From Lentilactobacillus curieae (GTDB lineage: Bacteria > Bacillota > Bacilli > Lactobacillales > Lactobacillaceae), in contig NZ_CP018906.1 of NCBI RefSeq assembly GCF_000785105.2, positions 1,860,001-1,924,000 of the forward strand: DNA of 64,000 nt, in the 5' to 3' direction. Shown piece by piece: positions 3,023 through 7,203 of the stretch (its first letter is position 1; each line of letters begins with the position of its first letter). The notes beneath the pieces are model-generated. The model ran no database searches and had not been told where the DNA came from. It was given only the letters and a program-made list of their open reading frames with translations. A program made the translations under genes and the position numbers.

Positions 3023-3058
3023 AAAATCCTGCCTCTAAATTGTGAGGCGGGATTTTTT
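3021..3058. terminator. bidirectional intrinsic terminator between rqcH and carB
   Basis: An 11-bp stem (3025-3035 with 3043-3053, one G-U pair) is flanked by an A-run on the left and a T-run on the right. It can therefore stop transcription from both converging genes. The carB stop codon overlaps its right flank. Confidence 0.85.
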
Positions 3059-5570
3059 AGTCATTTCTATTCTCAAAGTTTTTATAACTGATTCGGGCAC
3101 CTGATTCTTGAGCGATAGTTCCGTCTGTCAGTCGCGATTGTAACGCTTCAAATGGGAATACCGCATTAAGGTACGCAAACCGCTTATGAGTGAAGGAATG
3201 GAGTTCATCTTGAATAAACGAAGTGCTAACTACACCAAGATGTTTTCTGACCAAAACTGAGATCCAGTCAATTCCGGTAACTTTGCTTAGGAAAGTGGTT
3301 TCAGTAATAGTAATTGGTCGAATTCCGATTAAATTAAACTTATTATCTGCCTTATTGAAAAGAACTTGAACCAACCCCTGCCAGTCATTGGGATTAACTT
3401 CGTTGATTGCTAAGTTAACCAAATCAGCAGAATCTTGTTTCCAATTAGTCATTGGAATTTGCAATTGCGTTAAGAATTTCAGCTGGTTTTTTCCTTGGGG
3501 ATTTGAAAAGCTAACCGTAGTAATTGGCATGACCTGATCACCATCAATAAATAAATCAACCGCATCTGAAGCAATTGTGTCATTGAATAGTGAATTCTTT
3601 TGATCTGGCGGTAAAACGACTACATTTAAATCCTCAAACTTTTTTAGTTGGTTGGACAAAAAGTGACGATTTCCGGGCAGAAAAATAATGTCTGGCTTTT
3701 CAAGCTCAATAATATTTAATATATTCCCCAGTTGAATTGGCTCAATGTATTGTTTATCGCTAATACTTGGAGTTAGCGAAACGGCATTAGGGTTAGTGTT
3801 CATAATAATCGTTTTGTAGCCTGACTTCCGTAATTGAATCAGGATTTGTGAGGTGTAGTAGTCTGATCCGGTGTTTGGACCTAACTGGTTACCACCTCGA
3901 CCAATAACTAATGCAACTTTTTCGTCAACGAAGGGATGACTTTCATTTTCAGTTTCGTAACTCGAATAAAAAATGTTGGTATTTTCAACTAGTTCCCCGC
4001 CGGTTGGTTCAACCTCTTTAAACGTTACTTTATGGCTAACGTTTCGGTTCATTCTTAAAATGGTTGAAATACTAACGTTCCAAAGTTCTGCAAGCATTCC
4101 GTCACCAAATCCGTACTTATGGCCAATTTCAATCGATTGTTCCGATAATGGGTGATTGCTTACATAGTCTTGGGCCTTCAATAATTGATTCAATTTGTAG
4201 AAATAAAATTTATCAATCTTTGTTAGTTCGGACAATTCATCAATTGAAAATCCACGTCGTAAGGCTTCCATCAAAATCAGCATCCGACTTGCAAGTGGAT
4301 GGATTAATTGGTTGATCAATTCATCATCGTTAACTTTTGAAACACTCGGTAAAACATCACGAGGAGACAATTGCGAACTGTGGAGAGCTTTAATGATTGC
4401 CTCCTCAACAGTTCTCCCAACTCCAATTGTCGATCCAACTGATTTCATAATTGTATTCAAATGTTGGTCAACGTCCTCAATATCCTCAAAGGGCCATATT
4501 GGGACTCTAACCACGATGTGATCGGTTGTTGGTTCCATTATTCCCATGAACTTGTTGTATCGACCAGGAAGCTTAATTTCGGTTAGAGAGTAACCCAATT
4601 CTAAGAATGTTGAAACATAAGAGATTGGGTATCCCGTCACCTTCGCAGCAAGAGCTGTGTTCCTTGTAAAGTAAGGGCTAACTTTCGTAACAAAATGGCT
4701 GTTTTCCATCCGGTGCTGGGCAAATTGAACGTGACAAGTTCCAGTAATGTTAAGAGCGTCCATAATCTTAAATGTGGCAGTTCTTAATTTCTGATACTCC
4801 TCATTCAACAATGTTTGTGTTGGTGCAAAAATGATTGAATCGCCAGAGTGAATACCAATTGGATCCATATCTTCTAATCCGGAAATTAGCATCTTGTTTC
4901 CCTGGTTATCTCGGATTCCGACCATCTCAATTTCCTTATAGCCAACAATACTTTGCTCAATCGAACAACGCTTTATGTATGTTCGCTTAAAACTTACCTC
5001 CAACGCTTCATCCAGTTCCTCTGAATTGTTGCAAATAAATCTACTGGTATCATGATTTGTGGAAATTGGCTTAACAATCACTGGGAAATCAACTTTTCTA
5101 ACAAAGTCCATTGCCTCATCTTCGTTAGCAACAATTACCGATTCGATAGTTCGTTCATTGATGTCAGTCAAAGTCCGTTTTAGTTCAACATTTTCAACTA
5201 TCTTCGCTAGGTTGGCATCGCGAACACCCACTAACGTGATGTTATTGTCTTCCAATACGCCACTTTCGAATAATTGCCACGCAATTTGTAATGCTTTAAG
5301 TCCACCAATCGTCGGTAGGATAGCATCTGGATGTTCCTTTTCAATTACGTTAACAACATTTTTAAAATTAATTTCAGAAACGAATACATCTGCTGGCTGA
5401 ATTTCTTCAGCAGTCACTGAAAAAGGGTTATTGTCTATCAACAAAACCTTAGCACCCGTTTTTCTGAGAGCAGCTAACCGCTCGAAACTAGAGGCATCAA
5501 ATTCATTTTCGATACCAACGTTCGTAGGGCCGCTTCCGATAATCAGAATTTTTTTAATATCTAAAGGCAT
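3057..5570 (-). CDS. carB: degenerate carbamoyl-phosphate synthase large-subunit homologue, probably catalytically inactive
   Basis: The frame is intact but encodes only 837 residues against about 1060 for functional CarB. The first half aligns with the carboxyphosphate-forming half: GSGPTNVG, the GIHSGDSI and FAPTQTL segments and the TGYPIS motif. However the glycine-rich loop is replaced by TNHDTSRF, and the usual EVNPR ligand motif reads KVSPY (residues 296-300). The second half keeps the pre-ATP-grasp fold (VIGRGGNQLGPNTG, SISDKQYIEP) but the second ATP-grasp domain is mostly missing; a remnant remains around residues 749-775. No C-terminal allosteric (MGS-like) domain is recognisable. 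The ATG at 5570 follows AGAAGGG and overlaps the end of carA by 17 nt, as in functional operons. A regulatory or scaffold role with PyrR is inference. Confidence 0.8.
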   Translation of the reverse strand: MPLDIKKILIIGSGPTNVGIENEFDASSFERLAALRKTGAKVLLIDNNPFSVTAEEIQPADVFVSEINFKNVVNVIEKEHPDAILPTIGGLKALQIAWQLFESGVLEDNNITLVGVRDANLAKIVENVELKRTLTDINERTIESVIVANEDEAMDFVRKVDFPVIVKPISTNHDTSRFICNNSEELDEALEVSFKRTYIKRCSIEQSIVGYKEIEMVGIRDNQGNKMLISGLEDMDPIGIHSGDSIIFAPTQTLLNEEYQKLRTATFKIMDALNITGTCHVQFAQHRMENSHFVTKVSPYFTRNTALAAKVTGYPISYVSTFLELGYSLTEIKLPGRYNKFMGIMEPTTDHIVVRVPIWPFEDIEDVDQHLNTIMKSVGSTIGVGRTVEEAIIKALHSSQLSPRDVLPSVSKVNDDELINQLIHPLASRMLILMEALRRGFSIDELSELTKIDKFYFYKLNQLLKAQDYVSNHPLSEQSIEIGHKYGFGDGMLAELWNVSISTILRMNRNVSHKVTFKEVEPTGGELVENTNIFYSSYETENESHPFVDEKVALVIGRGGNQLGPNTGSDYYTSQILIQLRKSGYKTIIMNTNPNAVSLTPSISDKQYIEPIQLGNILNIIELEKPDIIFLPGNRHFLSNQLKKFEDLNVVVLPPDQKNSLFNDTIASDAVDLFIDGDQVMPITTVSFSNPQGKNQLKFLTQLQIPMTNWKQDSADLVNLAINEVNPNDWQGLVQVLFNKADNKFNLIGIRPITITETTFLSKVTGIDWISVLVRKHLGVVSTSFIQDELHSFTHKRFAYLNAVFPFEALQSRLTDGTIAQESGARISYKNFENRND

Positions 5571-6645: not shown

Positions 6646-6669
6646 ATCCACGCCCCATTTACGAAAAAA

Positions 6670-7203
6670 TTATTTAGTGATTTCGACTGCGTCCCTGTCG
6701 TCGATTTCTTCAACCAAGACACGAATCTTTTCTTTTTGTGAACTGGGGATGTTTTTGCCAACAAAATCTGCTCTGATCGGCAATTCTCTGTGGCCACGGT
6801 CAACTAAAACCGCAAGATTTATTGACTTGGGTCTACCAAGATCCATTACCGCACTAAGGGCTGCTCTGACAGTTCGGCCAGTATACAATACATCATCCAC
6901 AAGGATCACCCGTTTATTTTCAACTGAAAAGTCCACGCCATTATTTGCAATTCTAACGTCAGCACTCATTGAGTCATGCTCAATGTCGTCACGGTAGTTG
7001 GTGATATCTAATTCACCAACTGGGATCGTTACATTTTCTAGTTGTTGTAGGCGATTAGCAATTCTGGTTGCTAAGAAAATCCCCCGGGTTTTAATTCCCA
7101 CAAGGACTAAATCGTCTACCCCTTTGTTGCGTTCAACGATTTCATAAGTAATCCGGGTAAGTGCCCGCTGCATTGCCATTTTGTCTAAGATTGTTTTCCC
7201 CAT
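6670..7203 (-). CDS. pyrR: PyrR: pyr mRNA-binding regulator / uracil phosphoribosyltransferase
   Basis: PyrR binds uridine nucleotides and then pyr leader RNA, promoting attenuation of pyrimidine biosynthesis genes; some members also have uracil phosphoribosyltransferase activity. The 177-residue protein is full length. It carries the PRPP-binding loop [17 protein letters not shown] and family segments [11 protein letters not shown] and [25 protein letters not shown] lies upstream of the start. It is the first gene of a unit with the degenerate carA and carB, and has its own promoter overlapping the end of rluD. I see no anti-terminator/terminator leader in the 65-nt upstream gap, so it does not obviously control itself by attenuation. 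Because no functional pyr genes are nearby, it may correspond to the second PyrR known in some lactobacilli. Confidence 0.92.

Follow-up and report, generated by a model that had tools for sequence, protein, structure and literature searches.

The window analyzed here is a 64,000-nucleotide (nt) stretch of the Lentilactobacillus curieae genome (contig NZ_CP018906.1, positions 1,860,001 to 1,924,000), a genome of 2.10 Mb in one contig that is coded G000; throughout, G### denotes a genome, g# a genus of the family Lactobacillaceae, and L### a fetched stretch. On the minus strand of the window, pyrR is followed by carA* and carB*, genes resembling those of the small and large subunits of carbamoyl-phosphate synthase (CPS). 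The asterisk marks a degenerate copy, and the pair is called CPS* (Table 1). Both subunits have lost catalytic residues. Most of the family genera sampled nevertheless keep the pair, which suggests a noncatalytic and probably regulatory job. Read from the ATG at 6645, CarA* has 363 amino acids (aa), the length of most relatives; a GTG at 6651 is also possible (365 aa). The coordinates bear out the 17-nt overlap of the carA* and carB* frames described in a first-pass annotation of this DNA. The phosphoribosyl pyrophosphate (PRPP) loop reported there for PyrR is likewise present, as a 13-residue stretch kept in the window protein, of which a 10-residue stretch is invariant in 24/24 genomes of the genus. 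A PyrR search of G000 detected the window protein as its sole PyrR.

Table 1. Features of the CPS* locus, in window positions
Feature	Position	Strand	Remarks
pyrR	6670..7203	-	177 aa; 263 bits against NF003548 (NCBIfam; cut-off 218); PRPP loop intact
carA*	5554..6645	-	CPS small subunit without glutaminase residues; PF00988 and PF00117 (Pfam)
Gly246 codon of carA*	5908..5910	-	Site of catalytic Cys269 in Escherichia coli CarA
carB*	3057..5570	-	Degenerate CPS large subunit, 837 aa
rluD-like pseudouridine synthase gene	7269..8168	-	PF00849 and PF01479; conserved neighbor upstream
lspA (signal peptidase II)	8172..8609	-	PF01252; conserved neighbor
fbpA/rqcH-like (NFACT)	1313..3022	+	PF05833; convergent neighbor downstream of carB*
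Promoter-like TTGACA-17-TATTCT	7239..7267	-	In the rluD-pyrR gap, just after rluD
Terminator-like hairpin	3020..3059	.	Between the convergent ends of carB* and fbpA; 8 such hairpins in the region, 4.7 in shuffled sequence

Residues are numbered on E. coli CPS (PDB entries 1bxr and 1c30), whose active-site residues have assigned roles and to which CarA* is homologous throughout and CarB* over residues 3 to 631. In the window CarA*, numbered from the ATG, Gly246 replaces the catalytic Cys (C269) and Ser331 the catalytic His (H353), as the first-pass annotation had stated. Its further claim, that Asp333 marks the loss of a catalytic Glu, does not stand: Asp occupies this third triad position in 31 of the 47 CarA proteins having both Cys and His and is therefore no evidence of a dead CarA*. 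The final alignment held 69 CPS* and 47 live copies. Among the 44 CPS* picked on CarB* score alone, all have Gly at the catalytic Cys site. So do the other 25, which were sorted by residue and locus jointly; the full contrast of Gly in 69/69 with Cys in 47/47 live CarA is thus partly true by definition. The His is gone in all 69. In CarB*, the EVNPR region of the first ATP-grasp domain reads VTKVSPYF against VIEVNPRV in a live copy (L065), and the glycine loop reads TNHDTSR against TLGGTGG, so that the degeneration noted there on first pass is confirmed, with K, S, and Y in the one motif and HD in the other. R129, the glycine loop, E299 (now Lys), N301 (Ser), and R303 (Tyr) are lost, while E215, H243, Q285, and R306 are retained.

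The degeneration goes beyond what had been described. Unlike the E. coli enzyme, the window CarB* has no MGS-like allosteric domain and a shortened second ATP-grasp domain. TIGR01369 covers residues 4 to 632 only of its 837 and scores 550 bits, where the cut-off is 1027. Aligned by profile with live CarB, which spans 1075 columns, CarB* stops at column 928 and fills fewer columns of the second half. Across the 69 copies, the first-half metal Glu (E299) is gone in 64, with Lys or Arg there in 56, and at least 1 of 12 checked first-half residues is lost in every copy but one (g21, L186). The 10 full-length CarB* have all lost the second-half EVNPR motif, and the remaining 59 have a shortened second half.

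That CPS* still produces carbamoyl phosphate is thus a practically negligible prospect. Speaking for it are the copy from g21, which has 12/12 of the first-half residues, and a CarB* from g11 (L168, G033:C1:297580-300717), which at 1327 bits exceeds the TIGR01369 cut-off. Against this stand the loss of the His in 69/69, of the Cys in the 44 score-picked copies, and of an intact second half throughout. Furthermore, the title of one reference reportedly names two CPSs as the makers of carbamoyl phosphate in Lactiplantibacillus plantarum; if so, CPS* would be a third CPS locus there. The L168 CarB* lies beside a Gly269 CarA*, and automatic annotation may name it a working CPS; in this genome, both the live and the degenerate CarB pass TIGR01369. 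The window CarA* passes TIGR01368 (359 versus 307 bits) and NF009475 (416 versus 221 bits) of NCBIfam, a name match that says nothing on activity and can mislead metabolic models.

Within the genus, pyrR, carA*, carB*, rluD, and lspA keep the same order in 23/23 further genomes, and the triple pyrR-carA*-carB*, with CarB* full length in an open frame, is present in 24/24. Both fthfs and fbpA lie beside the locus in 22/23; neither is in the remaining stretch (L051), whose contig ends just past carB*. Given this conserved order and Gly for Cys in 44/44, the arrangement is not due to chance. The family sample comprised 20 genomes from the best CarB* matches, spread over 14 other genera, and 36 representatives of 28 genera, mostly with ambiguous scores. 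Of the 40 genera sampled, 32 have CPS*, as a rule downstream of rluD and pyrR; rluD is upstream in 68/69 copies and not within 5 kb in G050. None of the Cys-bearing rows in the set of representatives had rluD or fbpA in the fetched stretch. Presence was judged on fetched sequences only, because the family scans (CarB*, CarA*, and PyrR; 397 genomes) report a portion of their matches and live CarA and CarB also pass their thresholds; the single-protein scan of genome contigs yielded two loci only. CPS* was not found in 11 representative genomes of g12, g13, g22, g25, g29, g30, g31, and g33. A query with the C-terminal half of CarB* matched 14 of 295 genomes of the order, all of them Lactobacillaceae; because divergent CPS* within the family escape this query too, the lack of matches outside the family does not show absence there. 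CarB* measures 820 to 859 aa in 53 copies, 1054 to 1067 aa in 10, 791 to 817 aa in 5, and 661 aa in one. The locus thus offers a stepwise series from essential enzyme to pseudoenzyme, beginning with a copy whose first half is intact and ending with copies that are barely recognizable. The most degenerate case (L210; G126, g10) has a CarB* of 661 aa, a CarA* of 347 aa, and a PyrR of 158 aa that escaped the PyrR search at an E value of ≤1e-40; the order between rluD and fbpA is the same.

The ratio of nonsynonymous to synonymous divergence (omega, dN/dS by NG86) in the genus is 0.009 to 0.037 for carA* (5/13 pairs measurable) and 0.024 to 0.033 for carB* (2/13 pairs), values that are rough, as most genus pairs are saturated in dS and many measured dS values exceed 1. 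Both genes are under purifying selection, and random decay in Lentilactobacillus was rejected. In same-genome comparisons, CarA* dN is lower than live CarA dN in 5/6 pairs, and CarB* dN is higher than live CarB dN in 5/6 and equal in 1. A slowly decaying, functionless relic would account for motifs and length being lost stepwise across lineages and for the eight genera whose representatives had no CPS*. In g37, where carB* omega reaches 0.15 to 0.19 and some genomes have no PyrR, decay may be real; selection is likewise relaxed in g23, where omega is 0.11. As an account of CPS* in general, a relic is nonetheless very improbable, with open frames and order kept in 24/24 genus genomes, omega ≤0.037 wherever measurable there, and CPS* retained even in genomes without another CarB and without aspartate transcarbamylase (ATCase).

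Constraint is unevenly distributed along the pair. Across 12 genomes that encode CPS* and a live CPS (66 pairs, domain borders set by hand), mean identity among CPS* copies compared with live copies was 0.41 versus 0.78 in pre-ATP-grasp 1, 0.45 versus 0.78 in ATP-grasp 1, 0.52 versus 0.85 in pre-ATP-grasp 2, and 0.30 versus 0.59 in the remainder of CarB, while the oligomerization domain, at 0.50 versus 0.49, retains live-enzyme conservation. CarA gave 0.62 versus 0.57 in its N part and 0.62 versus 0.60 in its glutaminase part. When the comparison was limited to 6 genomes with live copies from a single clade, the values were 0.68 versus 0.66 for the oligomerization domain, 0.54 versus 0.87 for ATP-grasp 1, and 0.76 versus 0.78 and 0.75 versus 0.77 for the two parts of CarA. 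These identities indicate that the catalytic parts have been released from constraint, which persists on assembly and on CarA*. They also make it unlikely that CPS* was neofunctionalized, with pockets remodeled for another reaction such as a different ATP-grasp ligation and still catalytic: the catalytic domains fall from 0.78 to 0.41 to 0.45, and the oligomerization domain does not. Such remodeling would fit the survival of E215 in 67, H243 in 61, and Q285 in 50 of the 69 copies and the uniformity of some replacements (Gly269; Lys or Arg for E299 in 56/69). It fits poorly with the loss, in most copies, of the glycine loop, the metal Glu, and Arg129, and with CarB* lengths ranging from 661 to 1067 aa.

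Another possibility is that CPS* forms mixed or inactive complexes with the true CPS and so modulates it. In its favor, the oligomerization domain and CarA* are the parts with live-enzyme conservation, and 48 of the 69 carriers also have a CarB over the TIGR01369 cut-off. However, 18 carriers, spanning 13 genera, have no other CarB (E ≤ 1e-50), and 3 more, including G000, have split frames only. Some caution applies to a few of the 18 whose genomes are <92% complete (G011, G039, and G050). ATCase over cut-off is absent from 11 of 12 checked carriers without another CarB. The mixed-complex role proposed in the first-pass annotation is therefore disfavored as a general function, and we consider it very unlikely. 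In these 18 genomes, the only CarB-like gene found, where there is any, is degenerate. The same annotation had asked for a second, functional carAB in G000; the only canonical carB found there, outside the window (L060:4999-8066; G000:C1:764998-768065), is split between two overlapping frames (675 and 347 aa). Split carB frames also occur in G009 and G015, reflecting either real loss or sequencing error. One genome (G114, g26) has ATCase over cut-off and no CarB but CPS*, so that its carbamoyl phosphate comes from elsewhere or a gene was missed.

The neighborhood of CPS* is that of the Bacillus-type pyr operon, which in Bacillus subtilis runs lspA-rluD-pyrR-pyrP-pyrB-pyrC-carA-carB. CPS* loci differ from it in having no pyrB or pyrC and mostly no pyrP, and searches upstream of the window pyrR turned up no PyrR RNA element. 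Intermediate arrangements exist within the family. Loci of g11, g14, g21, and g40 read pyrR-permease (PF00860; pyrP)-carA*-carB*. At this site, G158 (g22) and G295 (g30) carry rluD-pyrR-pyrP-pyrB-pyrC-carA-carB, in which carA encodes the catalytic Cys. Judging from gene order, CPS* is a relic of an ancestral Lactobacillaceae operon lspA-rluD-pyrR-pyrP-pyrB-pyrC-carA-carB. The first half of CarB* may have been the last to die, because the g21 copy (L186) keeps all 12 checked residues while its glutaminase Cys and second-half motif are lost. In a CarA tree, the 38 rows with a CarB* of 817 to 859 aa form one clade (quick method), and most Gly269 copies with a full-length or very short CarB* sit on long branches; the tree cannot tell single from multiple origins of the Gly change.

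The pyrR gene lies ≤126 nt upstream of carA* in 55/69 copies and across the permease gene in 5 more. In the window, pyrR-carA*-carB* is probably one unit of its own and probably co-transcribed. The promoter-like site in the rluD-pyrR gap recurs with a match of at least 10/12 in 18/24 genomes of the genus; the promoter scan alone is uninformative (12 sites in the region, 15.1 in shuffles). In L055, L056, L058, and L059, inspection by eye showed a GC-rich hairpin with a T-rich tail, either an rluD terminator or an attenuator, downstream of the best promoter-like site and ahead of the pyrR ribosome site. PyrR is single in 41 of the 44 genomes searched, in 38 of these at the CPS* locus, and two PyrR proteins occur in 3 Lactiplantibacillus genomes. 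In one of them, G270, the PyrR gene at C1:884251 heads pyrB-pyrC-carA-carB and that at C1:1657039 heads CPS*; the products are 64% identical. The second contig of G270 is identical over its whole 7218 bases to the L. plantarum plasmid NZ_CP039122.1, and the initial 15 kb of the second contig of G338, the part compared, are identical to a Lactiplantibacillus pentosus plasmid.

These two loci bear on a system already described. An L. plantarum pyrR2 mutant is said to be CO2-requiring. One source gives lp_2704 as pyrR1 and lp_1782 as pyrR2 (PMC7911632), and another reports that PyrR2 mediates the response of pyr genes to inorganic carbon (PMC3582564). Because the other PyrR gene of G270 sits in the pyr operon, the assignment of pyrR2 to the CPS* locus is supported by elimination, in line with the connection drawn in the first-pass annotation. 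The gene then lies in the same lspA-rluD-pyrR-carA*-carB* block as in the window, although L. plantarum has an additional PyrR1 in its pyr operon and G000 has a single PyrR. In the portions of the open-licence literature covered, we recognized no paper on a dead CPS or on the neighbors of pyrR2 and found the mechanism of the inorganic-carbon response of PyrR2 described nowhere.

Taken together, the explanation we favor, to which we give about an even chance, is that CPS* is the CPS of the ancestral operon, deprived of catalysis and retained as a protein assembly that shares a unit with PyrR and most likely acts together with it on uracil uptake or the pyr regulon. If PyrR2 of L. plantarum relies on a sensor of inorganic carbon, CPS* is the strongest candidate for it. 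This explanation rests on residue loss, gene order, selection, domain-specific constraint, and the placement of PyrR2 by elimination, and the pseudoenzyme cassette proposed on first pass is in this respect well supported. Physical contact between CPS* and PyrR, bicarbonate and/or a nucleotide as the ligand, and which way the effect runs are all inferred. A bolder version, tentative and to our minds doubtful, is a family-wide pseudoenzyme sensor: the dead heterodimer would sense inorganic carbon or a nucleotide through its remodeled first ATP-grasp domain, dock on PyrR, and set pyr attenuation.

Several observations weigh against a partnership with PyrR. The pyrR gene is absent from 9/69 CPS* loci (g3, g6, g17, g27, and g37). 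The PyrR proteins of g3 and g6, which keep CPS* without a local pyrR, group with Lactiplantibacillus PyrR1 (support 99/96), and the g6 pair is still strongly selected (omega, 0.022 to 0.026). No PyrR was found in G039 and G308 at E ≤ 1e-40. One pyrR of G322 is immediately followed by a live carA (L178), and pyrR adjacency is therefore not special to the dead copy. Thus, CPS* can persist without its old partner, and PyrR can adjoin a live CPS. PyrR was also found in 7 of the 8 genera whose representatives have no CPS*. In the PyrR tree, the PyrR proteins linked to CPS* do not form a single group. The window PyrR is nearly equidistant from L. plantarum PyrR1 (61% identity) and PyrR2 (63%); the link to PyrR2 therefore rests on gene order. 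Finally, the bicarbonate-site residues N301 and R303 are mostly lost in CPS*, which weakens bicarbonate as a ligand of window-type copies.

These points lend some weight to a different account, in which CPS* is kept as a noncatalytic assembly whose partner is not PyrR and the adjacency to pyrR is left over from the ancestral operon. The block descends from a pyr operon that G158 and G295 have kept whole; as an inheritance, the adjacency calls for no present function. Strong selection persists in g6 without a local pyrR. We regard this account as rather unlikely, since pyrR has stayed ≤126 nt upstream in 55/69 copies though pyrP, pyrB, and pyrC left those loci.

A partial parallel is mammalian CPS1, in which the glutaminase Cys is replaced, ammonia is used, and the dead glutaminase domain is retained; CPS1 keeps both synthase halves, however, and in CPS* both are degenerate. 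Lactobacilli are known for CO2-dependent growth. If the sensor version is true, the CO2 sensor so far missing in lactobacilli would be CPS*, concealed by its annotation as a carbamoyl-phosphate synthase. If the dead CPS is a sensor or an adaptor, the mechanism of PyrR2 would be approachable by a few gene deletions.

Targets for PyrR were sought with the PyrR element RF00515. Before the window pyrR, no element was detected at the gathering score in the window or at E ≤ 1 in positions 6600 to 7700. G000 has 3 matches of 48.8 to 51.2 bits, all under the gathering score of 54, of which one precedes a permease gene (PF00860) and one pyrB. Of the 44 genomes, 42 give a hit at E ≤ 0.01, and 26 exceed the cut-off. 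The leader before the G000 permease gene (L151, G000:C1:1242918-1243026; 51.2 bits) has similar leader-permease pairs in ATCase-less relatives (L133 and L143). In ATCase-less genomes, a PyrR-like element precedes a permease gene (G010, G023, and G046), a two-frame permease gene (G018), a major facilitator superfamily (MFS) transporter gene (G056), or a deoxyribosyltransferase gene (G247), with the permeases of G010, G018, G023, and G046 identified by likeness to the tested L151. Elsewhere in the window, Rfam models place a class B RNase P RNA at 13429-13804 and a flavin mononucleotide (FMN) riboswitch at 57398-57518, both on the minus strand.

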